Assembly: GCA_947585425.1 (NCBI GenBank)
Contig: CANPWZ010000017.1
Span: 1-41,636, forward strand
DNA length: 41,636 nucleotides
Reading direction: 5' to 3'
DNA from: an uncultured Oscillospiraceae bacterium
Lineage (GTDB): Bacteria > Bacillota > Clostridia > Oscillospirales > Oscillospiraceae
How positions within the stretch are numbered: position 1 is the stretch's first letter; every line of letters starts with the position of its first letter. Positions 24,814-41,636 of the stretch are shown one piece after another. Below the pieces are notes generated by a model. It searched no databases. It saw only the letters and a program-made list of their open reading frames with translations, and had not been told where the DNA came from. A program made the position numbers and the translations under genes.

Positions 24814-25623
24814 TTAAATATGCGGTTTTCTCCGGCCAACCGTGTACGACCAGGCCGGCCTTGGCTCCGACGGCCACAGCAGGTACCGGGCGCCCACGCA
24901 TGGGGCGAAGCCGTAGGGGTTGACGGCGGTGAAGCTCTCGTAGTCCACGGCGCCATCCGGCGGGGCCAGGGTGACGGAGTCGCTGGGGATCTCCACGTAC
25001 TCCACCTGGTAGGGCTTCATGTTCCGGCTGGCCCGCCAGGAGCGCTCCCCCGGTCTGGCCCGGCCAAACTCCCGGGCTTCCTTGGTCATGTACTTGGCCA
25101 GCTCCCGCACGTAGTGGATGTCAAAGGGCTCCGCCCGAAGGTACCCGCCGAAGGGCCAGAGGGATTGGAGCTCTTCCATCATCCCCGGCCCGGTGCCGTT
25201 GATGACGAGGTGGATGTGGAGCCGCCGGTCCTCCAGCTCCCGGTCGTCGCCCAGGACGGAGTCCGGCGTGGCTCCGTGCCAGCCCTCCACGCAGTAGATG
25301 TAGCGGAGCTCCTGGCCCCGTTTTCGCCGGGCGGCCCGCACCTTCCGCACGAAGGCCCCGAAGGCCTTGCCGGCGGCGGCCTTGTTCTCCGGCAGATGGG
25401 CGTCGTCGAAGGTGGCGGTGATGACCATGTCGCCGGCGCCGAAGTTGGCGGCCAGGGTCAGCTCCAGTTCCCGCCAGGAGCACTTGTCGTTCCAAAACTG
25501 CATCGCCCGGCTGGTGGGCTCGCCCCGGCGGGTCCTCGTCCGGCCGGACGGGCCCTCCGGGACGGAGCCCAGGATCTCATAATTGAGCAGCCCCGCGGTG
25601 ATGTGCTTGATGGCCTTGGCCAT
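24814..25623 (-). CDS. HUH endonuclease, rolling-circle type Rep protein
   Basis: 269 residues. Motif order is that of rolling-circle Rep proteins: a strand MVITATFDDAHLPEN (66-80, motif 1), the HUH motif in RRLHIHLVING (His136 and His138), and a tyrosine helix YVRELAKYMTKEA with Tyr171 and Tyr178-x-x-Lys181. Such enzymes nick one strand at an origin and stay attached through the Tyr. A replicative DnaB system is also present, so a second, nick-based step is implied. The GGAGG site is good. The Rep assignment is strong; its use by this phage is inference. Confidence 0.83.
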   Translation of the reverse strand: MAKAIKHITAGLLNYEILGSVPEGPSGRTRTRRGEPTSRAMQFWNDKCSWRELELTLAANFGAGDMVITATFDDAHLPENKAAAGKAFGAFVRKVRAARRKRGQELRYIYCVEGWHGATPDSVLGDDRELEDRRLHIHLVINGTGPGMMEELQSLWPFGGYLRAEPFDIHYVRELAKYMTKEAREFGRARPGERSWRASRNMKPYQVEYVEIPSDSVTLAPPDGAVDYESFTAVNPYGFAPCVGARYLLWPSEPRPAWSYTVGRRKPHI

Positions 25624-31245: not shown

Positions 31246-32303
31246 GCCGTCGCCCCCTCTCTGATCTTATCGGCCAGGGCATTGAGGGCGGCCACCAGCT
31301 TTTTGGCGTCCTCGGCATCCCGAAGGCGGACCTTCATCAGCAGCCCGATCATCTTGTTGATGTCGCTTTGAATACCGTCAAACAGCAGTTTGAACTGTGC
31401 GATTTCGGCGTCGGCGGCGATGGTATTGTTTCCCTCCGCCTTCTTGGCCTGCTCCCTGGCGGCGTCCAGCTGGGCCTGGAGAGCGTCCCGCTCCGCCTCG
31501 GCGGTTTTTTGGGCCTCTTTAGCCTTGGCCAGCTTGTCCTCCAGGGCCTTCCGCCTGGTTTCGGCCTCTGTCTCGGACTTTTTCACGGCCTCATTGGCGG
31601 CCTTAATATCCTGCTGGAGCTTGAACCGCACCCGGTCATTCTCCATCTGGTTCTGCTTAACGGCGGCTTCGATGGCCGCCTGGTCGGGCACCTCCTGGAT
31701 TGCCACATCCTGGGGCTTCTCCCGGAGCTCTTTCAGCTCGGCGGACAGGCGCTCGGCCTCGGACCGGGCCTTTTCGGCCTCGGCGGTCTTGAGCTCCAGG
31801 TCGGCGGTCAGCCCCTCGATGCGCTCGTTGGCGAACTTCATGTCGGCGGACATCTTCTCCTGGGCGGCCCGGGCCTCGTCCCGCTCCTTGATGGCCTGCT
31901 TCAGCTCCCGGGTGGACATCTCGTCCACCGTCTTCTCCCGGCCGCCCACCACATGGGTGGCCGCCACAAAGTCATCCCGCTCCTGCTCAGGAAGGGCCAG
32001 CAGCGCCAGAGCCTTGGATGCCCCCAAATCCGCAAGCGTCTGCGGATTTGAATATGCCCGGGCCAGGGCCATGAAGCCCTGGGCGGTGCGCTCGGAAAAC
32101 TCCACCCGATCGTCCAGCCAGGGCAGCCACTCCCCGTGGGAGAGCACGGCCTTGGCCTCAATGAGCCGCCGGCCGATGTCCAGGATGGCGTTTCCGGCGG
32201 TACGCTTCAGCTCCAGCACCTCGGCGGTGATGGTCTCGATGTCCCGCGGCGCGGCGGGGGCGGTGGCGGCGATCTGCTCCGCCAAACTAAACTCCTTAGG
32301 CAT
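31242..32303 (-). CDS. DUF3102 domain protein with long coiled coil
   Basis: 353 residues from ATG 32303, behind GGGAGGTG. The N-terminal DUF3102 domain shows VLELKRTAGNAILDIGRRLI and HGEWLPWLDDRVEFSERTAQ, a motif resembling KorB/ParB-like DNA-binding helices. Residues about 140-300 are an Ala/Glu/Lys heptad coiled coil. It starts inside the end of parA (eight-base overlap), so the two are made together. In place of ParB it may be the DNA-binding partner of the ParA ATPase, or a replication-linked factor. The domain call is good; the function is inference. Confidence 0.82.
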   Translation of the reverse strand: MPKEFSLAEQIAATAPAAPRDIETITAEVLELKRTAGNAILDIGRRLIEAKAVLSHGEWLPWLDDRVEFSERTAQGFMALARAYSNPQTLADLGASKALALLALPEQERDDFVAATHVVGGREKTVDEMSTRELKQAIKERDEARAAQEKMSADMKFANERIEGLTADLELKTAEAEKARSEAERLSAELKELREKPQDVAIQEVPDQAAIEAAVKQNQMENDRVRFKLQQDIKAANEAVKKSETEAETRRKALEDKLAKAKEAQKTAEAERDALQAQLDAAREQAKKAEGNNTIAADAEIAQFKLLFDGIQSDINKMIGLLMKVRLRDAEDAKKLVAALNALADKIREGATA

Positions 32304-33123
32304 GCTGGAGCACCTCCCCGGATGCGGGCGCTGCGCCGCCCTGGTCGGCGGGCAGAAGCACCTCAGTATCCACAAGCTCCCGGACCCAGGCCCGGTAGTC
32401 CTGGGCGGCGGCGGACCTGGGAGACCAGATCAGCACCGGCTCCTTGGCCCAGGTGGATTCGATGACCTTGACGGTCCGGCGTATGACGTTTTTGTACACC
32501 GGGCAGGGGGCGTTCTCCCGGATGTAGGCGGCGGCGTCGTCCACCACACCGGCCCGCTGCACCTGGTTGATGAGGATCCCGGCCACCCGCACGTCGGGGT
32601 TGATGGACTTCACGCCCTCGATCTGGCGGGTCAGGTCGGCCATGCCCTCGGCGGAGTAGGCGTCGGGCAGCATGGGGATGATGATCCCGTCGGATGCCAT
32701 GATGGCGGCGGCGGTGGCGGCGCCAAAGTTGGGCGGGCAGTCGATGACGGCCACGTCGTAGGTCTGGCCCTCGGCGGCGGCGGCCAGGAAGTCCTTGAGC
32801 CGGTGGACGGTCCAAAACTTGCCGGTGGGGTCGGCGTCCAGCCCCCACAGCAGGTCGGAGGCGGGCACCATGTCCAGGCGCTCGATGTCGGTGGGCTGGG
32901 TGGCGTCCATCCAGTAGCTCACCAGCTCGGAGCCGGTGAGTATCTCGTACAGGGTGGGGTAGTCCCCGGCCTCGATGAGGGCCCGGGTGGCGTTGCGCTG
33001 GGCGTCGGCGTCGATGAGCAGGACGTTGAGGCCGTGCTCGGCGGCCAGCAGATAGCTGAGATTGATGGCGGTGGTGGTCTTGCCCACTCCGCCCTTCATG
33101 TTGAGGATGGCATAAGTTTTCAT
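32296..33123 (-). CDS. parA: ParA/Soj-family ATPase
   Basis: 275 residues from ATG 33123, AAAGGAG eight bases upstream. The deviant Walker A reads KGGVGKTTT with Lys10 and Lys15; Walker A' (VLLIDADAQ) and Walker B (VAVIDCPPNF) follow, then ILINQVQR. Such ATPases bind DNA cooperatively and position plasmids or chromosomes. No ParB or centromere was recognised, but a DUF3102 protein is translationally coupled. It could serve phage DNA segregation or placement during lysogeny or replication. Confidence 0.9.
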   Translation of the reverse strand: MKTYAILNMKGGVGKTTTAINLSYLLAAEHGLNVLLIDADAQRNATRALIEAGDYPTLYEILTGSELVSYWMDATQPTDIERLDMVPASDLLWGLDADPTGKFWTVHRLKDFLAAAAEGQTYDVAVIDCPPNFGAATAAAIMASDGIIIPMLPDAYSAEGMADLTRQIEGVKSINPDVRVAGILINQVQRAGVVDDAAAYIRENAPCPVYKNVIRRTVKVIESTWAKEPVLIWSPRSAAAQDYRAWVRELVDTEVLLPADQGGAAPASGEVLQHA

Positions 33124-33146
33124 GGTGATTTCTCCTTTTCGCAGAT

Positions 33147-34541
33147 TCAGAATGGCAGGGGCGTGTCGTTGCCGGAGATCTCCGAGAACTGCTCCTGGAC
33201 TTTGAGGGCATCCTGGGCCTTGCGGCGGTTCTCGGATTTGACGTGCCGGCCTTTGTCGATGAGGTCCCGGGCCACGGACGAACCCATGGGCTCCTCCCGC
33301 ACCAGCTCGGTCATGGTCTGGATCCCCGGCTGGAAGCGCAGGTCCACGACGGCCCGGCCGCCTTCCTTGTTCTTGCCGATCTTCAGCCGGCGGTTGCTGG
33401 TGTTGTCGTTGTTGTCCGACGGCCACAGCAGCAGGGCGATGTCGGCGTCCTGCTCCAGCTGCCCGCTCTCTTTGAACGAGTGCATGTTGGGCGGGACGGG
33501 GTTTTTGCCCTTGTCGGTGTCGGGGCGTTTGAGCTGGGCAAGCTCAACGATGGCGATGGCCTGGGACTGCGCGAAGCGTTTAAGGGTCTGACTGTTTCGG
33601 GTGACTTTCTCGTACTCGCTGGAGTTACGATCGTAGGGCGAGGACAGCAGCTGCACGTAGTCGATGTAGGCGATCTGGTACCCGTGGCCGATGGCGTCAT
33701 CCGCGATGTCCTCGGCGGAGGAGCCGCTGGCCCGGATGAAGTCAATGGGGCAGACCTCGGTGAACCGCTGGGTGGCCTCGGCGAAGCGGCCCCAGGTGTC
33801 ATCTGAGAAATTGCGGGTCTTGATGTCGCTGAGGCTCACCCGGGCCAGATGGGAAAAGAGCCGGTCGGCCATCTTGGCCTCGGATGTTTCCAGGGTGTAG
33901 TAGCCCACCTTGTAGCGCCGGGCCTGGGCGAGAGCGGTCTGGATGGACAGCAGCGTCTTGCCGGCGGAGGCGTACCCGCCCAGCAGGATCACGTCGCCCA
34001 GCTCGGCGTAGCAGCGCCGGTCCAGAGTGGGGATGCCCCAGGGCAGGTACTCCGGCTTTTTCTCGGCCCTCATGCGGACCAAAAAGTCGGCGGCCAGATC
34101 CGCGGCGGTCATCCGGGGCATGCGGTCGGTGGCGGAGAGCTGGGCGGTCATCTTGCGGACCAGCGCCTCGGCGTCGTCCAGGTCCCGGCAGGCGATCATC
34201 TGTCCGGCCAGGTCCTGGATCCGCAGCAGGGCGGCGCCACGCCGGACGATGGGGACATACTCCATCACGTTGGCGGCCGAGGGCGTCAGCTCCATGCACT
34301 GTCGGAGAAACTGTACCGTGTCCTGGCCGGCGTGGATGGCGTCGCAGATGGTGACCAGGTCGGCGGCTTTGCCCGCTCTGGCCAGGCCCCGGATAGCGGC
34401 GAAGACGGCCCGGCTGGGCCCGTGGGCGAAGTCCTCCGGCCGGAGAGCGGCCAGCACCTTGGGGATGGTCCGCTCGTCGATGAGCATGGAGCCGATGACA
34501 GCCACCTGGGCCTGGTCGTTGACGGAGGGGACGCTATCCAT
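33147..34541 (-). CDS. dnaB: replicative DNA helicase DnaB
   Basis: 464 residues from ATG 34541 (one ATG six bases earlier is less well spaced from AAGGGGG). The N-terminal DnaB domain (QVAVIGSMLIDERTIPKVLA) is followed by the RecA-like core with Walker A at LGGYASAGKTLL (Lys195), Walker B at AYIDYVQLL, and the family blocks YTLETSEAKMADRLFSHLAR and LAQLKRPDTDKGK. It unwinds DNA at the phage fork, loaded by the initiator proteins encoded upstream. Overlaps the Cys-rich gene by eight bases. Confidence 0.94.
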   Translation of the reverse strand: MDSVPSVNDQAQVAVIGSMLIDERTIPKVLAALRPEDFAHGPSRAVFAAIRGLARAGKAADLVTICDAIHAGQDTVQFLRQCMELTPSAANVMEYVPIVRRGAALLRIQDLAGQMIACRDLDDAEALVRKMTAQLSATDRMPRMTAADLAADFLVRMRAEKKPEYLPWGIPTLDRRCYAELGDVILLGGYASAGKTLLSIQTALAQARRYKVGYYTLETSEAKMADRLFSHLARVSLSDIKTRNFSDDTWGRFAEATQRFTEVCPIDFIRASGSSAEDIADDAIGHGYQIAYIDYVQLLSSPYDRNSSEYEKVTRNSQTLKRFAQSQAIAIVELAQLKRPDTDKGKNPVPPNMHSFKESGQLEQDADIALLLWPSDNNDNTSNRRLKIGKNKEGGRAVVDLRFQPGIQTMTELVREEPMGSSVARDLIDKGRHVKSENRRKAQDALKVQEQFSEISGNDTPLPF

Positions 34542-34863
34542 GGCCATCGCCCCCTTGATCTTCCAACTTGCGGAGGATGCGCCGTATGTAGGTGGGGGTA
34601 GTTGCCATCTCCATGGCGATGCGGATGGCATTCCAGCCTACCTCGTGGTGGAGGCGCCAGATCTCGTTCCAGTCCAGCTTGCGGGCGTTGGGCCTGCCGT
34701 GCTGGCGGCGCTTGCGTCCGTCCTGGGGCAGGGCGCCGTCCGCTGCGCATTTGCAGCGGGATGGGCTGTTTTTGCAGCGGTCAGGGCAGTCGGTGTCGGT
34801 GCATCCCAGACAGCAGGGCTGGTACGGGTACCGCCGGCAGGAATAGATCTTGCAGCGGATCAT
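34534..34863 (-). CDS. Cys-rich protein with C-terminal HTH
   Basis: 109 residues from ATG 34863 behind GGAGGTGATG. The N-terminal third holds nine cysteines (YSCRRYPYQPCCLGCTDTDC then RCKNSPSRCKC), probably one or two metal sites. After a basic link comes a helix-turn-helix (LDWNEIWRLHHEVGWNAIRI, TPTYIRRILRKLE), of a form common in small phage DNA-binding proteins. It sits between the initiator and DnaB, where a helicase loader or DNA-binding accessory would be expected. Its start overlaps the initiator stop. Confidence 0.78.
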   Translation of the reverse strand: MIRCKIYSCRRYPYQPCCLGCTDTDCPDRCKNSPSRCKCAADGALPQDGRKRRQHGRPNARKLDWNEIWRLHHEVGWNAIRIAMEMATTPTYIRRILRKLEDQGGDGHG

Positions 34864-35678
34864 CAGCTCATCACCTCCGGGTCGGCGGCCCAGCCGCCGG
34901 TGTCCCCGGAGGGTGCGGCGGGCAAGTTCCTCACCCCTTCGTTCTCCCAGAGGCGCCGATTCAGCCATTTCGAGAAATACGGAATGTACTGCCCGCCCTC
35001 TTTTGTCCAGTCCCGGGAATGCTTCTGCTTGACAAGTGCGTCGAACATGATGTGGCACAGGTCGCGGTCAGGCTTCAGCTTGTCCCACGCTTTTATGGCG
35101 TCCTGTTTGCCGTCGCCGCGGGGGTATGCCTGCCAGAAGACCTCAAACCAGTCCGGGTGATATTTGGGAGCGGACTTGGACGGCCTCGGCGGCGCGTCAT
35201 CCCCCTCCGGGGGGACTATAGGGGGGAATATGTCAGTATTATCATGTGTATTACATTGTAATGCTGTGCTGGTTTCCGCATCTGCGTGTGTCGTTTCTGA
35301 CATTTGCATTTGCTGATTTTCGCAAATGCTCTCGCCGGGGGTGGGCTCACCGTAGAGGGTCAGCAGCTCGTCACTGGGGGAGTACCAGCTGGTGCGGTCC
35401 CGCCGGTCCGGGTTGAAGTCCCCCACAAGGAGGGCACCCTTGGCCTTGCACCGATCGATGATCCGCCGAATCTGGGCCATGGACCACCAGGGGTACAGTG
35501 CAGTGTAGGTTTTCATGGCGTTGTAGGTCCACCAGCGGCCCTCGTGGTAGTTGATGTTCTCACTTCGGTTGGTGCGGTACCAGAACATGATGGAGTCCAG
35601 GAAGATGGCCTCCTCTGTGCCGTACTTGACGGCAACGCAGCCCTCTCCGTGTAGGTGCATGAGCGGACTACGAGCCAT
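34863..35678 (-). CDS. phage replication initiator / primosome protein
   Basis: 271 residues from ATG 35678 behind GGGAGG with eight bases of spacing. N-terminal winged helix (TEEAIFLDSIMFWYRTNRSE, YPWWSMAQIRRIIDRCKAKG) as in Firmicute phage initiators; a Ser/Thr/Gln-rich linker (about 120-165) in an AT-rich part of the gene; then a C-terminal DnaD/loader-like domain (FEVFWQAYPRGDGKQDAIKA, YIPYFSKWLNRRLWENEG). It likely binds the phage origin and hands DnaB to it. It overlaps the paralogous small gene upstream. Confidence 0.87.
   Translation of the reverse strand: MARSPLMHLHGEGCVAVKYGTEEAIFLDSIMFWYRTNRSENINYHEGRWWTYNAMKTYTALYPWWSMAQIRRIIDRCKAKGALLVGDFNPDRRDRTSWYSPSDELLTLYGEPTPGESICENQQMQMSETTHADAETSTALQCNTHDNTDIFPPIVPPEGDDAPPRPSKSAPKYHPDWFEVFWQAYPRGDGKQDAIKAWDKLKPDRDLCHIMFDALVKQKHSRDWTKEGGQYIPYFSKWLNRRLWENEGVRNLPAAPSGDTGGWAADPEVMS
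35208..35330. other. AT-rich island inside the initiator gene, candidate origin
   Basis: Inside the linker-coding part of the initiator gene the base composition drops sharply. It contains a palindrome ATTACA-T-TGTAAT (35250-35262), an inverted repeat GCATTTGC/GCAAATGC (35306-35329), and overlapping CATTTGC direct repeats (35301-35313). Origins within the initiator gene are known from lambda O. The function here is inferred. Confidence 0.5.
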
Positions 35679-36036
35679 CTTTTTCACCTCCCGGCGGGTA
35701 GATTACGGCGTACCACTGCTTGACCGGGCTGTCCGGCGGGGTGTCATAGTAGGCCATTTTCAGCAGGCCCTTGTGGACACAGCGGAGCTCAATCTCTCTG
35801 ATCTGAGCCTCGTCCCACCAGGGCAGCTCCCGGCACAGCTCGTCATAGGACCAGGCACCGAAGGTGTAATTGGGGATGACGGCCAGCTCCATGCCCTTCT
35901 CCAGGCCGGCGTTATGCAGCTCCACGGCCTTGCCGATCTCCTGGCTGATGTGCATCATAAAGACCGCCTCGGCCAGTCCGCAGTCCACGGCACACTGAGC
36001 GTCGAACATGCGGACGTCATTCCTGCGGATGATCAT
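35668..36036 (-). CDS. stand-alone winged-helix protein, paralogue of the initiator
   Basis: 122 residues from ATG 36036 with AAAGGAG eight bases upstream. The whole protein matches the N-terminal winged helix of the neighbouring initiator: CGLAEAVFMMHI against YGTEEAIFLDSI, and LPWWDEAQIREIELRCVHKG against YPWWSMAQIRRIIDRCKAKG. It probably arose by duplication and may compete for, or help open, the origin. It overlaps genes on both sides. Confidence 0.76.
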   Translation of the reverse strand: MIIRRNDVRMFDAQCAVDCGLAEAVFMMHISQEIGKAVELHNAGLEKGMELAVIPNYTFGAWSYDELCRELPWWDEAQIREIELRCVHKGLLKMAYYDTPPDSPVKQWYAVIYPPGGEKDGS

Positions 36037-36295
36037 GTGCGTGGCTCCTTTCTTCATACTGCTGCAAAATCGCAGCGTTCAAATCTTCGTGCAAGTGATC
36101 CAGCGCCCAGATGATGGCGTAGATCCCCGTGATGTACTCCATGGCCCAGTCCACGCCGGGAGCCGGGCGCTCGGCCTGCCAGTTGTGGAGCCCGGTGGAC
36201 AGATTCTCCAGCAGGAGACGGAGCGCGGTGGTGATGGCCTCAATCTGACAGGCATGGCTTTCCATGTCGCACACAAAATCAAACGGATCGTGCAT
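36017..36295 (-). CDS. hypothetical protein, first gene of the replication operon
   Basis: 92 residues, start at 36295 behind AAAGGAGGGG. Helical and acidic, with HDPFDFVCDMESHACQIEAI and a Trp/Ile-rich stretch (YITGIYAIIWALDHLHEDLN). No family recognised. It is the first gene after the leftward promoter at 36320-36348, which carries the RHH operator array, so its expression should follow that switch. Confidence 0.7.
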   Translation of the reverse strand: MHDPFDFVCDMESHACQIEAITTALRLLLENLSTGLHNWQAERPAPGVDWAMEYITGIYAIIWALDHLHEDLNAAILQQYEERSHAHDHPQE

Positions 36296-36312
36296 ATTTA
36301 CCCCTCCTTTGA

Positions 36313-36373
36313 TAGCACTATGTTAGCACCTTGTTAGTAGAATGTCAACAAGAAATTTGCTAACATAGTGCTA
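36313..36373. promoter_or_regulatory. helically phased RHH operator array
   Basis: A 16-base sequence (TAGCACTATGTTAGCA, 36313-36328) recurs as a perfect inverted copy at 36358-36373. Each arm holds TAGCA twice at 11-bp spacing, and a third, TAGTA, follows in phase at 36335. Five-base subsites repeating every helical turn are the usual target of tetrameric ribbon-helix-helix repressors, two of which are encoded next door. Confidence 0.8.
36320..36348 (-). promoter_or_regulatory. leftward promoter of the replication operon
   Basis: Read leftwards: TTGACA (36348-36343), 17 bp, TAACAT (36325-36320). The -10 lies inside the left arm of the operator array, so binding there should shut the promoter. 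Confidence 0.78.
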
Positions 36374-36389
36374 AAGGAGTGGTAACGCT

Positions 36390-36566
36390 ATGGCAACGAA
36401 CAAAATACAGACAGGGCTCCGGCTGGACGAGGTCACCTATGACAAGGCGCTGGCCCTGGCAAAGAGCGAGCGCCGCTCGCTGAACAACCTGGTGGAGTAC
36501 GCCCTGCAAAAGTACATCGGGGAGTATGAGGCCCAGCACGGGCCGATCACTCTCCCGGATGAATGA
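36390..36566 (+). CDS. ribbon-helix-helix repressor (rightward)
   Basis: 58 residues, ATG 36390, AAAGGAGTGG just upstream and partly inside the operator array. Arc/MetJ-type fold: β-strand KIQTGLR (residues 5-11), helix A (DEVTYDKALALAKSER), the turn and helix B (SLNNLVEYALQKYIGEYE). It should dimerise and contact DNA with the strand. It is transcribed away from the replication operon and towards a second RHH gene whose end it overlaps by 20 bases. It is expected to regulate its own region. Promoter not identified. Confidence 0.85.
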   Translation: MATNKIQTGLRLDEVTYDKALALAKSERRSLNNLVEYALQKYIGEYEAQHGPITLPDE

Positions 36567-36717
36567 TGTGCGTCTTCTCACGGACGGCCAGGCCCAGGTC
36601 GATCAGCGTGAGGATCAGCGAGTTCACCGACACGCCAATGGTGGCGGCCAGGTTGGACAGCTCCTCATAGCGGACGGCGGGGACGCGGAGGCCGGTCTGA
36701 ATTTTATCGTCCTTCAC
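36547..36717 (-). CDS. ribbon-helix-helix protein (leftward, convergent)
   Basis: 56 residues. The likely start is GTG at 36717, behind AAGGGGGTGAG; a TTG further up has no site of its own. RHH fold with β-strand KIQTGLR (residues 5-11), identical in all seven residues and in position to the converging protein, then helix A (AVRYEELSNLAATIGV) and helix B (SVNSLILTLIDLGL). The helices differ strongly, so the two are old paralogues that keep the same DNA-reading strand. It probably reads the same TAGCA sites and may compete or form mixed dimers. Confidence 0.82.
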   Translation of the reverse strand: MKDDKIQTGLRVPAVRYEELSNLAATIGVSVNSLILTLIDLGLAVREKTHIIHPGE

Positions 36718-36729
36718 GGGCTCACCCCC

Positions 36730-36758
36730 TTGCAAAAGATTTCACTCTGTGGTATACT
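36730..36758 (+). promoter_or_regulatory. rightward promoter beside the RHH genes
   Basis: TTGCAA (36730-36735), 17 bp, TATACT (36753-36758). Predicted start of transcription near 36765. No protein gene lies before the terminator at 36790-36830. Confidence 0.6.
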
Positions 36759-36764
36759 GACAAA

Positions 36765-36830
36765 GTCTTTGGTGGTCTTTTGACTGCCCGGCCTCTGCTG
36801 GATGTTGGCGCGTCCGGCAGGGGCCTTTTT
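36765..36830 (+). ncRNA. candidate small RNA of about 65 nt
   Basis: Bounded by the promoter just upstream and a strong intrinsic terminator. It has a short 5' part of about 25 nt and then the terminator stem. It has no reading frame. Its 3' end abuts the stop codon of the opposite-strand gene at 36829 and, if that gene's mRNA continues left towards the second RHH gene, the RNA is antisense to it. Existence is inferred from signals only. Confidence 0.42.
36790..36830 (+). terminator. rightward terminator beyond the RHH genes
   Basis: GGCCTCTGCTGGA (36790-36802) pairs over 13 bp, with two G-U pairs, to TCCGGCAGGGGCC (36813-36825), followed by TTTTTATT. It can end the candidate small RNA and also readthrough from the rightward RHH gene. 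Confidence 0.85.
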
Positions 36831-37086
36831 ATTGCCTGATGAGGCCATAGCTCTCAGCCTCCTCGGTGGTGATGGGGACCATATCGTTGTCCACGTTCAG
36901 CGCGGGCGTCCCGCTATAGACGGAGTAGTCCGCCCAGTGTAACTGGCCATCTCTGTCCCGCCAGCTCAGGGTGTACCAGGATCGGCTCATGTGGCGAGAA
37001 AAGCGCACATCCCGGCTGGATGGGATGTCCAGGCCCCTGGAGCGTAGGAACTTGGTTAGGCTGGTCTTGGTGGCGTAGGCGATCAT
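36829..37086 (-). CDS. hypothetical early protein, 85 aa
   Basis: 85 residues behind TAGGAGGTG. Basic N-terminal half (TSLTKFLRSRGLDIPSSRDV, SRHMSRSWYTLSWRD) and acidic C-terminal half. No family recognised. It follows the excisionase-like gene in the early leftward operon. The stop codon touches the T run of the opposing terminator. Confidence 0.68.
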   Translation of the reverse strand: MIAYATKTSLTKFLRSRGLDIPSSRDVRFSRHMSRSWYTLSWRDRDGQLHWADYSVYSGTPALNVDNDMVPITTEEAESYGLIRQ

Positions 37087-37097
37087 AGTGTCACCTC

Positions 37098-37325
37098 CTA
37101 ATGGATTCGATAAATCACATTTTTGCGGGCGTAGGTCTGCTTGCGGTACTCGGCGGCGGTATTCTCGGCCTCATACTTCTTGACGGCCTCGGCGGAGATC
37201 CTCCAAAGGGCCCCCACCTTGACGCCAGACAGCTTGCCGGTGCGGAGCAGCCGGCGGACAGTATCCACGCTGCACTGCCAGCGTCGGGCCACATCCTCGA
37301 TAAGCAGCAGTTTGTCCTCGCTCAT
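37098..37325 (-). CDS. excisionase-type HTH protein
   Basis: 75 residues behind AAAGGAGG. Winged helix of the HTH_17/excisionase type: LLIEDVARRWQCSVDTVRRL, then RTGKLSGVKVGALWRISAEA. It is either the Xis that directs excision or an early regulator; a gene of this type in the early operon with the integrase elsewhere fits both. A basic tail (AARKNV-type, YRKQTYARKNVIYRIH) is present. It follows the XRE gene with three bases between. Confidence 0.8.
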   Translation of the reverse strand: MSEDKLLLIEDVARRWQCSVDTVRRLLRTGKLSGVKVGALWRISAEAVKKYEAENTAAEYRKQTYARKNVIYRIH

Positions 37326-37328
37326 GGT

Positions 37329-37787
37329 CTAATCCTCCTTTCGGTGTTTAGTGGCGAAGCTCAGCGCCATGGCGGCGGCCATAATGCCCTGGAGCTTATC
37401 CACGATGCGGTCGTACCGGGGGCGCTCGGCGTCGTCGATGACGCCGTCCCGGGCGATGTCGATGAGGGCCCGGTCGGACTTGTCGTCGGCAAAGTCGTAC
37501 ACGGCGTCGATGAGCTCCAGCACGGCCTGGGGCAGGGCAATGTCCCTCACCTCGGGCAGCAGGAGCCGGGCGGCGTTGCTGGACGCCCTCACGTGCTGGA
37601 TGGCCAGGCCCAGGTTGTTGTAGACCACGGTCATCTGGTCGACCACGTCGTTGGGCGGGATGCGCTGGCCGGTCTCGTAGTCGGCCAGACAGCGCACCGA
37701 CATATTGAGCAGCTCCGCGGCCCTCTCCCGGGTCAGACCGGCAAGTTTCCGGGCATTTTGGTAGATGTTTGTGCTGACATCCTGCAT
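37329..37787 (-). CDS. XRE-type regulator with helical C-terminus
   Basis: 152 residues behind TTAGGAGG. XRE helix-turn-helix at about residues 8-48 (ARKLAGLTRERAAELLNMSV, then RCLADYETGQRIPPNDVVDQ). The rest is a helical domain (LPQAVLELIDAVYDFADD, YDRIVDKLQGIMAAAMAL) typical of phage early regulators of the Firmicutes. It is the second gene of the early leftward operon, after the Cro-like gene. Probably a CII- or antirepressor-like regulator; direction of effect unknown. Confidence 0.8.
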   Translation of the reverse strand: MQDVSTNIYQNARKLAGLTRERAAELLNMSVRCLADYETGQRIPPNDVVDQMTVVYNNLGLAIQHVRASSNAARLLLPEVRDIALPQAVLELIDAVYDFADDKSDRALIDIARDGVIDDAERPRYDRIVDKLQGIMAAAMALSFATKHRKED

Positions 37788-37827
37788 GGCGTTGCCTCCT
37801 AAAATTTGCTACACTGGGGACGGTGGA

Positions 37828-38064
37828 TCAGCAGGCTTCCAGCTGGTCGGGCGGGCCGGCGGCGTCGGCCTCGGCGTCGGATGCAAAGAGGGCGTCGATG
37901 GAGCAGCCCAGCACCCGGGCCAGCAGGGGAAGGTCGCGGGTCTTCGGCAGCGAGATCTCCAGCTCCCAGTTGGCGACGGCGGAGCGAATGACGCCCACGC
38001 TGTCGGCCAGCTGCTGCTGGTTCATGCCGGCGGCCTCACGGCGGGCTTTGATTGCCATAATCAT
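37828..38064 (-). CDS. Cro-like XRE regulator
   Basis: 78 residues, start at 38064 behind TAGGAGGTG. Compact XRE domain: IKARREAAGMNQQQLADSVG, VIRSAVANWELEISLPKT, RDLPLLARVLGCSIDALF, followed by a short acidic tail. It is the first gene of the leftward early operon and diverges from the S24 repressor across the operator region, the standard place of Cro. It likely binds the same 17-bp operators and favours lytic growth. Confidence 0.86.
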   Translation of the reverse strand: MIMAIKARREAAGMNQQQLADSVGVIRSAVANWELEISLPKTRDLPLLARVLGCSIDALFASDAEADAAGPPDQLEAC

Positions 38065-38081
38065 GTTGTCACCTCCTATTG

Positions 38082-38223
38082 CGTCAATGCGAATGACGTT
38101 CTGATAGCCAAAAAGTCAGAATGTCATAAGCTATGACAACAGATATACCACGTCTGTTTTTGGTTGTCAAGTATTTTGACAAAAATATTTCTAAGCAATC
38201 TTGCGGTGTCATTTTTAATGACA
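38082..38223. promoter_or_regulatory. four 17-bp repressor operators
   Basis: O1 CGTCAATGCGAATGACG (38082-38098), O2 TGTCATAAGCTATGACA (38122-38138), O3 TGTCAAGTATTTTGACA (38165-38181), O4 TGTCATTTTTAATGACA (38207-38223). Shared form is YGTCAWW-N3-WWTGACR. Starts are 40, 43 and 42 bases apart, close to four helical turns. O2 and O4 are perfect. O3 covers the -35 of the early promoter and O4 fills the spacer of the repressor promoter. Confidence 0.88.
38142..38170 (-). promoter_or_regulatory. early leftward promoter
   Basis: Read leftwards: TTGACA (38170-38165), 17 bp, TATATC (38147-38142). The -35 is part of operator O3 and the start site falls near O2, so repressor bound at these would silence it. 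Confidence 0.87.
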
Positions 38224-38229
38224 TATAAT
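38201..38229 (+). promoter_or_regulatory. repressor promoter
   Basis: TTGCGG (38201-38206), 17 bp, TATAAT (38224-38229). Operator O4 occupies the whole spacer, so the repressor should control its own gene. Confidence 0.83.
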
Positions 38230-38247
38230 CGGGGTGAGGTGAAGCAC

Positions 38248-39144
38248 ATGACCCGCGTGAAGCAAATCCGAAAATTTTTCGGTTATACCCAGGATAAGCT
38301 GGCCAAACTGCTGCATGTCTCCCGGTCCACGGTGGCCATGTGGGAGACCTCGACACAGGCCCCGGACTACAACACCCTCAAAACGCTGTCCCAGATTTTC
38401 AACGTCCCGCCCGATCTGGTGCTGGGTGTCGGCATCTTTGAGCGGTGGGATGATATTCTGAAGTACTATGAGCCTCTGTCTTACCACCTGATGGCCCCGA
38501 TCCCGAAAACGTTGGACCTGCCCTCGTTCTGCGGGGACAAGTGTCTGGTGGCCTGGCTGGACACCAGGCACTACTTTGAGCCCGACGAGATGGCGCTTGC
38601 CCGGTGGTTCGACTTTGCGGTGGAGAAGATCAGCTTTACCGTCACCGACGACCCTGAGAATCCCTTGGATGACGTGGAGATCCGTTTCACCACAGAGTTT
38701 CAGGCCCTCATTGAAGCTGAGAAACGGCGGCCCCAGGGGATGCGCAGACTGGGAGAGAAGGTGCCCGTCTTGGGGGACGTGGCCGCCGGCATCCCCATCG
38801 AGGCCATCACCGACATCGTAGACTATGAGGAAATCGACGCCGCTTTGGCCGCCACCGGCGAGTTCTTCGGCCTGCGCATCAAGGGCGCCAGCATGGAGCC
38901 CCGGATGCACGAGGGGGACGTGGTCATCGTCCGCCGGCAGGAGAAGGCCGAGACCGGCGACACCGTGGTGGTGCTGGTCAACGGGGACAGCGCCACGGTA
39001 AAAAAGATCAAGTACGGCCCCGATGGAATCACCCTGCTGCCCACTAACCCGGCCTTCGACCCGCTGTTCTACTCAGCGGCGGAGGTGGAGGCCCTGCCGG
39101 TGCGGGTCATCGGCAAAGTGGTGGAGCTGCGGGCAAAGTTTTGA
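38248..39144 (+). CDS. S24-type lysogeny repressor (CI/LexA-like)
   Basis: 298 residues from ATG 38248 behind GAGGTG; the frame is open upstream but runs through the promoter. N-terminal XRE domain (about 3-60: KQIRKFFGYTQDKLAKLLHV, SRSTVAMWETSTQAPDY). A middle linker domain, longer than usual (about 65-165), precedes the S24 peptidase: cleavage pair Ala180-Gly181, catalytic Ser215 in GASMEP and Lys252 in ATVKK. It keeps the prophage silent by binding the four operators and is inactivated by RecA-triggered self-cleavage. The rightward gene after it follows at once. Confidence 0.92.
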   Translation: MTRVKQIRKFFGYTQDKLAKLLHVSRSTVAMWETSTQAPDYNTLKTLSQIFNVPPDLVLGVGIFERWDDILKYYEPLSYHLMAPIPKTLDLPSFCGDKCLVAWLDTRHYFEPDEMALARWFDFAVEKISFTVTDDPENPLDDVEIRFTTEFQALIEAEKRRPQGMRRLGEKVPVLGDVAAGIPIEAITDIVDYEEIDAALAATGEFFGLRIKGASMEPRMHEGDVVIVRRQEKAETGDTVVVLVNGDSATVKKIKYGPDGITLLPTNPAFDPLFYSAAEVEALPVRVIGKVVELRAKF

Positions 39145-39147
39145 ACC

Positions 39148-39876
39148 ATGCGACAGCGCATTTATGAGGTGATCGAGCTTGCCGAGGGCAAGGATCGGCT
39201 GAGCCGACTCTATGATCTGACAATGATGGCGGCGATCATCGTCAGTCTGATTCCGCTGGCGTTCAAAGGAACAAATGTGGTATTTGACTGGATTGACCGG
39301 GTCACTGTCGGCATTTTCATTTTGGACTATCTTCTGCGTCTGCTTACCGCAGACAAAAAACTGGCCAAGGGGGCAGGATCATTTTTGCTCTATCCCTTCA
39401 CCCCAATGGCTATTGTTGATTTGCTTGCGATTCTTCCGTCTTTTACAGACATCTTTCCCGGACTGCGGATGATAAGACTTCTGAGACTGTTCCGCACCTT
39501 TCGGGTATTCCGCACCCTTAAAATGTTCCGCTACGCTAAGAGTTTCCAAATTATCCTTGATGTCATCCGGGATCAGCGGGTGCCTCTGTTGGCAGTCTGT
39601 TCGTTGGCGGTCGGCTATGTACTCGTTTCCGCACTCATTGTGTTTAACGTGGAGCCGAATACATTTGAAAACTTCTTTGAGGCGGTCTACTGGGCTACCG
39701 TAAGCCTGACAACAGTGGGCTACGGTGACATTTACCCGGTCACAACCATTGGGCGCGTCGTTACCATGGTGTCCTCGTTTGTAGGGATTGCAATCGTCGC
39801 ATTACCAGCCGGCATCATTACCGCTGGGTATATGGACAGGATTCAAAAAGATAAGCATGAGCAGCTGGACGATTAG
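39148..39876 (+). CDS. voltage-gated potassium channel, full length
   Basis: 242 residues, the size of bacterial Kv channels such as KvAP. Six membrane segments: S1-S3 in 25-95; S4 with arginines at 107, 110, 113, 116, 119 and 122 plus Lys125 and Arg128, spaced every three; S5 about 145-167; pore helix with filter TTVGYGD (188-194); S6 about 203-229. The gene starts three bases after the repressor stop without a clear ribosome binding site, so its translation is probably coupled. Base composition is visibly lower in GC than the phage body, which suggests later acquisition. It would be expressed in the lysogen. Channel identity is strong; the role for the phage is open. Confidence 0.93.
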   Translation: MRQRIYEVIELAEGKDRLSRLYDLTMMAAIIVSLIPLAFKGTNVVFDWIDRVTVGIFILDYLLRLLTADKKLAKGAGSFLLYPFTPMAIVDLLAILPSFTDIFPGLRMIRLLRLFRTFRVFRTLKMFRYAKSFQIILDVIRDQRVPLLAVCSLAVGYVLVSALIVFNVEPNTFENFFEAVYWATVSLTTVGYGDIYPVTTIGRVVTMVSSFVGIAIVALPAGIITAGYMDRIQKDKHEQLDD

Positions 39877-39879
39877 AAT

Positions 39880-39896
39880 GTGTCCGAATCGGACAC
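39880..39896. promoter_or_regulatory. 17-bp palindrome, copy 2 (GTGTCCGAATCGGACAC)
   Basis: Identical to 20613-20629. It lies between the channel stop and the ribosome binding site of the GIY-YIG gene, right after a TAGAAT that resembles a -10 box but lacks a good -35. It could be an operator or an mRNA hairpin controlling that gene. Confidence 0.72.
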
Positions 39897-39910
39897 AGTG
39901 AGGTGTACTT

Positions 39911-41548
39911 ATGGATAACAAAAAAACACCCGTTTGGGTATGGGTACTTCGCGTTGTTGCGGTACTGTTTCTGATTGCGGCTCTGATGGTCGGGCCAGAG
40001 GCTTTTTTCGTGGTCCTGTCCATCATCCTGTTGGTTCTGTGGCTGAAAGCCAGGCGGGATGCAAAATCCGGGGGCGTTCAGGCTGCAAATATGGCGGCCG
40101 AATTGGATGCGGCAAAACAGCGGGCTGGCGAGCTGGAAAAATATCAGGCGATCATTGATGTGGAGCAGGAGTGTAAAAACCTGCGGGATCTCGCGGATAT
40201 TGAGATCGCGAACGATAAGGCGGCAGCCAAATCAGAGCGCAGCACAGCTCAGCTGTTGCTGAAAAATGCGGAAACTCAATCCGCAAATATCATCGGCAAG
40301 GCGAAGAACGAAGCGGCCGGCATCATCTCTGCGGCGGAGACGGAGGCGCGGAAAATTGCGGGCGACGCCTACGACGCGAAACTAAAAGCAGCCGAATACG
40401 AAGCAACAGTTATCGCGCTGAAAAACACGATTGACGGCTATGGCGATGAATGGCTAAAACCCACCTACTCTTTGCTGGATGAATTGGCGGAAGATTTTGG
40501 CTTTGCGGAGGCTGGTCAAAAATTAGCTGAAGCCAGGGCCAAAACGGCCAGGATGATCAAGCTCAAAGAGGCCGCAACCTGCGAATATGTTGAGGAAAAC
40601 CGGCGAGTGACGGCGATCAATTTTGTAGCAGACGCCTTCAACGGGAAGGTAGACTCCATCCTCGCCAAGACGAAAAAGGATAATTACGGTAAGCTGGAGC
40701 AGCAGATAAAAGACGCTTTTTACCTGGTCAATGCCAATGGTCGGGCGTTTCGCAACGCGCGGATCACCAATGCCTATCTTGATGCCCGCCTGGATGAGCT
40801 GAAGTGGGGCGTTGTATGCCAGGAGCTGAAGGCCCAACAGCAGGAGGAACAGCGCAGGATCAGGGAACAGATGCGGGAGGAAGAAAAGGCCCGCCGGGAA
40901 TATGAGCGGGCGCAACGGGAGGCTGCCAAAGAGGAGGAAATGCTCCGCAAGGCTATGGAAAAAGCGCAGGCTATGCTTGAAACAGCCAATGCTGAGCAGA
41001 GAGCTGAATATGAGACGCAGCTTGCCGACCTCCGCCAGAAGCTCACCGAGGCGGAGGAGAAAAACCAGCGCGCCCTCTCCATGGCCCAACAGACCAAAAA
41101 GGGGAACGTGTATGTCATCTCCAATATTGGCTCCTTTGGAGAAAACATCTATAAAGTCGGCATGACCCGGCGGCTTGATCCTCTGGATCGGGTGCGGGAA
41201 CTGGGCGACGCCTCTGTCCCGTTTGGATTTGATGTACATGCAATCATAGAGAGCGACGATGCGCCCGCTCTGGAGACCGACCTACACAAGGCGCTCGCCC
41301 TGATGCAAGTCAACAAAGTCAACCCCCGCAAGGAGTTTTTCCGGGTCAATCTGTCGGACATCCGCAAACTGGTAGAGAATAAGGGCCTCACAGCTAACTG
41401 GACCATCGAGGCGGCAGCGGCCGAATACCGGGAGACCCTTGCCATCGAAGCAGCCATGGCAAACGACCCAGATGCAAAGCGGCGCTGGGAAGAATACAAC
41501 GCCAGCTTGGTCAACAGCGAAGCCGCAAAAGCAGTAGCAGCCGAATAA
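39911..41548 (+). CDS. membrane-anchored coiled-coil protein with T5orf172 (GIY-YIG) domain
   Basis: 545 residues, DUF4041-like. Two hydrophobic segments at about 9-28 and 31-46 anchor it. A long charged helical region (about 60-160 and 300-390) includes heptad stretches rich in Glu/Lys/Arg; the piece between matches the DUF4041 type (TYSLLDELAEDFGFAEAGQK, AFRNARITNAYLDARLDELK). The C-terminal T5orf172/MUG113-type domain starts near 395: GNVYVISNIGSFGENIYKVG, MTRRLDPLDRVRELGDAS, then HKALALMQVNKVNPRKEFFRV, with the YVISN, YKVGMTR and E/F-F elements of the GIY-YIG clan. Site GAGGTG upstream. Possibly a DNA-cutting, membrane-tethered effector. Confidence 0.84.
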   Translation: MDNKKTPVWVWVLRVVAVLFLIAALMVGPEAFFVVLSIILLVLWLKARRDAKSGGVQAANMAAELDAAKQRAGELEKYQAIIDVEQECKNLRDLADIEIANDKAAAKSERSTAQLLLKNAETQSANIIGKAKNEAAGIISAAETEARKIAGDAYDAKLKAAEYEATVIALKNTIDGYGDEWLKPTYSLLDELAEDFGFAEAGQKLAEARAKTARMIKLKEAATCEYVEENRRVTAINFVADAFNGKVDSILAKTKKDNYGKLEQQIKDAFYLVNANGRAFRNARITNAYLDARLDELKWGVVCQELKAQQQEEQRRIREQMREEEKARREYERAQREAAKEEEMLRKAMEKAQAMLETANAEQRAEYETQLADLRQKLTEAEEKNQRALSMAQQTKKGNVYVISNIGSFGENIYKVGMTRRLDPLDRVRELGDASVPFGFDVHAIIESDDAPALETDLHKALALMQVNKVNPRKEFFRVNLSDIRKLVENKGLTANWTIEAAAAEYRETLAIEAAMANDPDAKRRWEEYNASLVNSEAAKAVAAE

Positions 41549-41563
41549 ACAGGAGGCCAATCC

Positions 41564-41636
41564 ATGTTTTGCAGTAACTGCGGCACACAGCTCCCAGAGG
41601 GGGCCAAGTTCTGCCCCGGCTGCGGAGCCCCGGCGG
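41564..41636 (+). CDS. zinc-ribbon protein, 5' part (cut by window edge)
   Basis: Starts at ATG 41564 behind AGGAGG. The 24 visible residues are one complete double-knuckle zinc ribbon (MFCSNCGTQLPEGAKFCPGC). Such ribbons often head membrane or signalling proteins in Firmicutes, with the main domain downstream. It follows the GIY-YIG gene by 15 bases, in the same direction, and probably belongs to the same cargo operon. The rest lies outside the window. Confidence 0.85.
   Translation, partial: MFCSNCGTQLPEGAKFCPGCGAPA

Follow-up and report, generated by a model that had tools for sequence, protein, structure and literature searches.

Two small ribbon-helix-helix (RHH) genes in a prophage of an uncultured Oscillospiraceae bacterium converge with overlapping 3' ends, encode an identical putative DNA-reading strand, and adjoin an array of operator-like subsites that recurs upstream of one of them, RHH1, in related elements. 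In our best overall explanation, toward which the sequence evidence tips the balance only just, RHH1 and the array would form an autorepressing cassette, and the second protein, RHH2, would share the array and take RHH1's place on it. The window, as we use the term, is the whole stretch of DNA that was analyzed (41,636 nucleotides).

Prophage and gene neighborhood

Family matches to terminase, major head, tape measure, and tail fibre proteins, together with CI-like and Cro-like genes, identify the window as tailed-phage prophage; its source genome comprises 2.0 Mb in 58 contigs. A search of window DNA 33147-38400 against phages gave zero matches. The genes around the pair are as follows.

32296..33123, minus strand: ParA-family ATPase (Pfam AAA_31, E 8e-37)
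33147..34631, minus strand: DnaB-like replicative helicase (Pfam DnaB_C, E 2e-33; PHROG 19, E 2e-69)
34863..35687, minus strand: RepO-like replication initiation protein (PHROG 9474, E 2e-21, and others)
35668..36057, minus strand: 129-aa ORF with weak likeness to replication initiation proteins (PHROG 11233, E 0.064)
36017..36295, minus strand: 92-aa ORF, gene 1 of the putative leftward operon (from the ORF list)
36390..36566, plus strand: RHH1, RHH protein of 58 aa with KIQTGLR as residues 5-11 (Arc-like repressor, PHROG 3180, E 5e-7); transcribed away from the replication operon
36547..36717, minus strand: RHH2, Arc-type RHH protein of 56 aa with KIQTGLR as residues 5-11 (Arc-like repressor, PHROG 582, E 5e-5)
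37828..38064, minus strand: Cro-like XRE repressor (Pfam HTH_3, E 2e-12), within the run of leftward genes of which RHH2 is the last
38164..39144, plus strand: CI-like repressor with HTH and S24 peptidase domains (Pfam HTH_3, Peptidase_S24)

In gene order, a leftward run leads from the Cro-like gene to RHH2, RHH1 is opposed to it, and a promoter within the array then reads leftward into replication. An initial reading of the DNA, made from the sequence only, had the array gating replication, and this stands in part: in this prophage the array's leftward promoter precedes the RepO-like, DnaB, and ParA genes, whereas the genes behind the array differ in other elements. A terminator-like site (37028-37007, minus strand) between the Cro-side genes and RHH2 could cut RHH2 off from cotranscription with them. 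The prophage also carries a second replication-type gene (24814-25623, minus strand; Pfam REP_ORF2-G2P and a PHROG replication initiation protein). Directly behind the CI-like gene lies an ORF (39148-39876, plus strand) that by eye has the look of a voltage-gated potassium channel with a TVGYGD filter, and its expression in the lysogen is possible.

The two RHH proteins

Matches to Arc-like repressors in PHROGs place both proteins in the RHH family; their Pfam matches fall below the curated cutoffs. As the sequence-only reading had proposed, the two are small, convergent, and identical in one strand, with KIQTGLR at residues 5-11 in the 58- and 56-residue chains alike; the 3' ends of their genes share 20 bp. 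RHH2 starts with GTG and has an alternative, longer TTG start at 36735. The accompanying claim that their helices differ strongly was overstated, as BLASTP aligns RHH1 with RHH2 at 43% identity over 35 residues, a resemblance from which identical strands could also follow through common ancestry. Searched against the PDB, a profile of RHH2 finds the Arc repressor first, weakly (E 0.11), and a profile of RHH1 finds the antitoxin EndoAI (E 0.034). We rejected RHH1 as the antitoxin of a type II toxin-antitoxin system: it has no toxin-like neighbor, being flanked by RHH2 and by the 92-aa ORF at 36017..36295, which has no family match in Pfam, PHROGs, or NCBIfam.

In alignments of relatives, the second helix begins with RSxNN in RHH1 and GxSxN in RHH2, and all 15 RHH2 rows and all 18 RHH1 rows keep K5, QTGLR, and Y17. 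The RHH2 alignment has 13 invariant columns in all and a mean column identity of 49%; its rows were picked by a KxQTGLR motif, so that the invariant strand is partly a product of selection. In a motif-free profile search, the partners of all 15 paired RHH1 proteins had QTGLR.

The array and its promoters

The elements between RHH1 and the leftward genes are as follows.

36310..36350, no strand: putative operator, left block, four TGYTARCA-like subsites 11 bp apart (36310, 36321, 36332, 36343); a like layout lies upstream of RHH1 in relatives
36320..36348, minus strand: leftward promoter TTGACA-17-(TGC)TAACAT (consensus promoter scan), with TG before the -10
36358..36366, plus strand: presumed extended -10 of the RHH1 promoter, TGC-TAACAT, also a subsite (read by eye; absent from the promoter scan)
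36358..36376, no strand: putative operator, right block, TGCTAACA at 36358, followed by weaker subsites at 36369 and 36380; repeats part of the left block in inverted form

The 11-bp spacing of TAGCA/TAGTA motifs (starts 36313, 36324, and 36335) and their inverted copies (36358 and 36369), as first described from the letters, were confirmed at those coordinates. The subsites are best written as an 8-bp near-palindrome, TGYTARCA, at the four left-block positions and 36358, with weaker ones at 36369 and 36380. Five subsites with at most one mismatch fall in the 94 bp that separate RHH1 from the leftward genes, against a mean of 0.32 and a maximum of 3 in dinucleotide shuffles (0 of 2,000 reached 5). 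There are 21 TGYTARCA-like subsites in the whole window, and the array is their densest cluster. The 16-mer TAGCACTATGTTAGCA forms a perfect inverted pair (36313-36328 and 36358-36373); at up to 3 mismatches it has 3 matches in the window, and the three-subsite pattern at up to 2 mismatches has 4, each against 0.03 expected. The array is the only exact match of the 16-mer in the 2.0-Mb genome. Its next-best genome matches are two copies of TGCTAACAAAATGCTAACA (contig C5, 98987-99002 and 99158-99173; L160), which are spaced 171 bp apart within a duplication that by eye seems to adjoin a tRNA.

The proposal that the array covers the -10 of the replication-operon promoter held up: the -10 of TTGACA-17-TAACAT falls on subsite 36321, which, read on the opposite strand, is the extended -10. 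The same arrangement (a -35 matching at no fewer than 5 of 6 positions, a spacer of 17 bp, and a -10 on a subsite) was found in 16 of 17 loci, a count that takes in one near-copy of the window, L015. The -10 subsite is an exact TGYTARCA in 13 of these loci and is one letter off in three (L020, L024, and L043); the exception is L022. In L015, likewise from an uncultured Oscillospiraceae bacterium, RHH1 is identical to that of the window and the DNA is 90% identical over 831 bp. The array also lies on the RHH1 side and looks like a divergent operator. Its layout is of the CopG/omega type, with subsites about one helical turn apart over the gene's own promoter region and kept in relatives; the RHH1 promoter itself is read by eye only.

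The array goes with RHH1 in relatives

Within 150 bp upstream, TTAGCA occurs on either strand in 20 of 21 distinct RHH1 genes (18 of them with at least two copies) and in none of 18 distinct RHH2 genes, and we rejected an array of RHH2's own on the latter count. Among other RHH genes, it occurs in 4 of 44 of the RSxN type and 1 of 51 of the Arc type, with two or more copies in 0 of 44 and 0 of 51; these counts exclude genes with an HMM score below 25, with less than 110 bp upstream, or with a repeated 45-residue core. Querying viral contigs with RHH1 gave eight loci, of which six (L001-L006) share the upstream layout and the distant L007 and L008 (strand QTAFR) do not; genome contigs L015-L025 share the array layout, weakly in some. 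An operator-plus-promoter pattern run against the viral collection returned six contigs, namely L001-L006, and no further contig; it was drawn from those same loci, is unfit for the spacing in the window, and missed the pairs L076 and L077, so that only the absence of others counts. RHH2 accompanies 15 of the 21 distinct RHH1 genes, and none was found in L019, L025, L042, L043, L044, and L045. Five of these six (L019, L025, L042, L043, and L045) still have TTAGCA upstream of RHH1, so that the array does not require RHH2.

Recurrence of the convergent pair

The search of related prophages that the sequence-only reading had suggested finds both the gene pair, convergent and end-overlapping, and the array again. 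In an RHH2-led scan of viral contigs, all eight loci face RHH1 in convergent orientation with overlapping ends, although six of the eight lie on contigs already known from RHH1 and two are near-copies. Seventeen of 18 distinct RHH2 genes converge on an RHH1-type gene with a 3' overlap of 20 to 86 bp, a proportion biased by the origin of most loci in RHH1 queries; the 18th (L014) is at a contig edge. The RHH2 strand in L030 reads QIGLR. Among the hosts that the records name are Oscillospiraceae, Lachnospiraceae, and Diplocloster. As lone queries against viral contigs, the window RHH2 and the two second-pair proteins of L021 gave zero matches, and RHH1 of L022 gave only two weak matches in 50,697 phage records and zero in plasmid records. 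RHH autorepressors with phased operators are an already known kind, as are phage RHH pairs; searches of open-license PMC papers turned up none on two RHH genes that converge, overlap at their ends, and share a reading strand.

Other arrangements of RHH genes came to light in these searches. Directly behind its first pair, L021 carries a second convergent RHH pair (603-942) with a different but common strand, STQMR/STQIR. The Clostridioides phage phiC2 (L163, 37608-40709) has an RHH triad, consisting of a 45-aa Arc-type ORF outside the feature table (39084-39221), phiC2p53 facing it, and the divergent phiC2p54, with 11-bp repeats between phiC2p53 and phiC2p54. In two inoviruses (L161 and L162), a lone RHH gene in opposite orientation sits between an RstB-like gene and the replication initiator.

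Strand residues and site classes

In the wider RHH family, the sites found upstream are associated with the amino acids at strand positions 7 and 9. Within 140 bp upstream of RSxN-type genes, TG[CA]TAACA accompanies 29 of 36 QxG faces and 1 of 27 T9 faces, and TGACRYCA accompanies 0 of 36 QxG faces and 17 of 27 T9 faces (Fisher p = 4e-10 and 8e-9, on related sequences that are not independent). S9 faces have TGATATCA or TGAATTCA upstream in 7 of 11. Two further groups stand outside the QxG/T9 comparison: HxG faces (four genes) have none of the sites, and QxA faces (four genes) are mixed. The genes were picked by a motif script among loci L001-L169, the rule and the classes were formed on the same data, and the table keeps spurious reading frames (e.g., the L033 and L114 rows). 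The window RHH1 is an example of a QxG strand, and a Brevibacillus phage protein (L166) of a T9 strand. In the RHH-DNA structure of AmrZ, base contacts are made by three alternate strand residues, Lys18, Val20, and Arg22 (PMC3325190), with which the apparent association of residues 7 and 9 with the site agrees.

The strand does not specify the site completely. Whether the heptapeptide is common to other RHH proteins with different sites bears on the claim, made from the sequence at the outset, that both proteins use one array, and that claim is partly weakened: Bacteroidales KVQTGLR proteins have TTATCA/TGATAA upstream in 6 of 6 cases (at least two copies in five) and TTAGCA in 0 of 6. TTATCA/TGATAA-type sites also accompany four of seven QTGIR proteins, and the heptapeptide class is found beside TGATAACA sites too. 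Given that the same heptapeptide occurs with TTATCA or TTAGCA sites, the strand marks a class of sites and not one exact site; the choice of site inside the class would be set by something other than the strand.

Convergent pairs match at positions 7, 9, and 11 more often than expected (4 of 9 versus 0.89 expected, p = 0.002; without L030, 3 of 8, p = 0.009), in a count that takes the QTGLR clade as a single case and rests on manual reading of the faces and pairs (nine convergent, eight divergent). The strands of other convergent pairs include STQMR/STQIR in the second pair of L021, QTGLR/QIGLR in L030, and RYTLR/RLTLR in L151. Mismatching convergent pairs were found in L062, L080, L098, and L138, and in part in L139; divergent pairs match at chance level (4 of 8 versus 3.1 expected). 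Strand matching as a universal rule is ruled out by the mismatches in L062, L080, L098, and L138 and by the chance-level divergent pairs. Two later finds stand outside these counts: the convergent pair of phiC2 matches incompletely (RYTLR/KYTLS), and the divergent pair of Jimmer2 (RFTLR/SFTLR) differs at position 7.

A candidate small RNA beside RHH2

A further element lies on the far side of RHH2.

36730..36758, plus strand: promoter-like element of the small RNA, TTGCAA-17-TATACT with TG (promoter scan), just upstream of the RHH2 start; similar in L015-L018 and L003
36765..36830, plus strand: candidate small RNA, 66 nt, two hairpins and a U tract (fold z -7.1), against the early operon and divergent from RHH2

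A two-hairpin unit stands at the equivalent place in the window, L015-L018, and L003; all six fold (z -4.4 to -7.5), and their sequences have diverged. Of 16 pair loci searched with a model built from these six, 6 have the unit next to RHH2; the unit is therefore not part of every cassette. With six further loci (L172, L173, L175, L178, L181, and L185), the model has 13 matches in 12 loci. These six entered the extended model out of 19 relative loci, in 11 of which the best promoter score was below 9 of 12; L177 and L179, which have promoter-like scores and other neighbors, were left out. Covariation is consistent with the structure, with 9 of 14 pairs changed on both sides and 87.6% of cells able to pair versus 75.8% after shuffling (0 of 500 shuffles; slid controls far lower), in an alignment that was itself fitted to the structure it counts. 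Searched as a family, the model has a match at E ≤0.01 in 44 of 300 genomes, and many of these matches may be plain terminators. Rfam gave no match on 33000-41636 at E up to 1.

For placement, the system of comparison is the OOP RNA of lambda (PMC5869508). The candidate is like OOP in being short, terminator-ended, directed against early genes, and situated between the Cro side and the replication genes; the OOP-like position, a short terminated unit against early genes and beside replication genes, is found here. It is unlike OOP in sequence and hosts.

Sister prophages and a portable cassette

In L172, L173, L175, L178, L181, and L185, the small RNA unit lies directly beside an initiator-like gene. 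The replication-side regions of five of these six (7.9 to 8.0 kb each) have RepO and DnaB in five of five, ParA in four of five, and a tblastn RHH1 match in none; L172 was judged by eye only. RepO, DnaB, and ParA occur together without a tblastn RHH1 match in L194, L195, L196, and L197 (8.0 kb each); the closest of the five regions, L196, from the same genus (G247), shares 50% (RepO), 57% (DnaB), and 57% (ParA) identity with the window. The RHH2-RHH1-array unit of the window, L015-L018, and L003 separates the small RNA from the RepO-like gene. Conversely, RHH1 occurs without RepO, DnaB, or ParA matches in L127, L128, L191, L192, L193, L001, L004, and L022 (4.9 to 14.6 kb examined, with L004 and L128 being near-copies), and L124 has RHH1 without a ParA match in a stretch that ends near its DnaB. 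Because RepO/DnaB/ParA and RHH1 occur apart across prophages, the RHH1-array cassette looks portable, and it would here give the replication genes an RHH1-repressible promoter.

Proposed mechanism and alternatives

From these patterns we infer binding by either protein, the operon structure, the role of RHH2, and the direction of its effect. RHH1 and the array would make up a portable operator cassette that represses itself and sits in inverted orientation within the early lytic region. RHH1 dimers would align on the 11-bp subsites, cover the -10 boxes of both divergent promoters, and turn off RHH1's own gene and, here, the replication operon, leaving it off or low; that RHH1 is a repressor at both promoters is a part of which we are quite confident. 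By position, RHH2 would be the last gene of the Cro-side run, presenting the same reading face (Q7, G9, and R11) on a different, Arc-type body. Made once the Cro-side genes are on, it would most likely bind the same array and displace RHH1 with another body, hence another strength, and promoter output would change, as in an RHH counterpart of CI and Cro on one operator. The case for RHH2 on the array is circumstantial (identical face, upstream sites of its own in 0 of 18, the strand-site association, and pair matching at p = 0.002 amid mismatching pairs) and makes its reading of the array somewhat probable; that it takes the array over from RHH1 is less so. We are doubtful, and propose only tentatively, that the whole amounts to a portable immunity cassette carried by phages of gut Clostridia, where two same-strand RHH repressors, made from convergent overlapping genes, contest a single operator with -10 subsites and time replication downstream of CI/Cro, with an OOP-like RNA at the join in some prophages, in a family whose alternate strand residues predict the operator.

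RHH1 might instead be the sole regulator, a CopG- or RstR-like autorepressor that limits the replication operon, with RHH2 a related traveller that acts elsewhere or weakly and owes its strand to ancestry. The five loci that keep TTAGCA where RHH2 was not found, and the inoviruses L161 and L162 with their lone RHH gene between RstB-like gene and initiator, would suit this account, but the convergent overlapping partner retained in all eight RHH2-led loci and the lack of such sites upstream of RHH2 (0 of 18) speak against it, and we consider it unlikely, if far from negligible. RHH2 could also act as an antirepressor through mixed RHH1/RHH2 dimers or co-assembly and not by independent binding. 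Each subunit contributes one strand to the RHH sheet, so that identical strands would fit a sheet built from both proteins, and the two genes adjoin in the pairs found; against this, the second helices start differently (RSxNN and GxSxN), and we hold mixed dimers to be improbable.

Convergent transcription might be the main control, with RHH1 subject to interference from the 3' overlap and from the early operon that runs against it, and with the proteins secondary. All 17 QTGLR-type pairs do overlap by 20 to 86 bp, and a terminator-like site in the RHH1 direction lies beyond RHH2 (36790-36825), but interference alone leaves the conserved protein residues and operator sites unexplained, which makes this account very improbable. 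The ParA-family ATPase in the same gene run (32296-33123) raises the reading of RHH1 as a centromere-binding partition protein, omega- or ParG-like, with the array as parS and ParA as its partner, and RHH-type partition proteins also repress from promoter arrays. Even so, RepO, DnaB, and ParA occur without an RHH1 match in L194, L195, L196, and L197, and RHH1 occurs without a ParA match in L127, L128, L191, L192, L193, L001, L004, L022, and L124 within the stretches examined; with ParA and RHH1 found apart, partition is ruled out as the main reading and keeps the slightest of probabilities.

Comparison with known systems

The preferred reading, an autorepressing RHH1-array cassette shared by RHH2, has partial parallels in several known systems. 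The immI region of P22, with Arc and Mnt, is alike in having two RHH repressors in one phage regulatory region, and Arc is what the RHH2 profile finds first in the PDB. Arc and Mnt have different operators, and their genes are not convergent and overlapping; here the strands are identical and there is one array. In place of a divergent layout of the Arc/Mnt type with separate operators, the pair here is convergent and overlapping, with the operator on one side only. Knight and Sauer reportedly found in 1989 that the specificity of Arc and Mnt is set by a short N-terminal region. CopG of pMV158 and omega of pSM19035 resemble RHH1 as small RHH autorepressors on tandem, promoter-overlapping subsites. 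They control replication or maintenance genes, their subsite sequences and spacing differ from those of the array, and we know of no second RHH protein with the same strand in either system.

The likeness to CI and Cro of lambda is one of logic, in that two repressors whose transcription units oppose each other would share their sites; the lambda proteins differ in being helix-turn-helix proteins with divergent genes. Because the prophage has its own CI-like and Cro-like genes, the RHH pair would be a second switch. RstR of CTXphi is a repressor whose gene is opposed to the replication genes under its control, and the RHH genes of the two inoviruses sit in such a place, a likeness by gene position.

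Implications

The strand rule (QxG with TG[CA]TAACA, T9 with TGACRYCA, and S9 with TGATATCA or TGAATTCA) bears on how RHH proteins choose their sites, and the sister prophages without the cassette offer a ready comparison. If both proteins read the array, the pair would be a natural test of two RHH bodies with one reading strand sharing an operator, and it would give temperate phages of gut Clostridia a compact second decision point.
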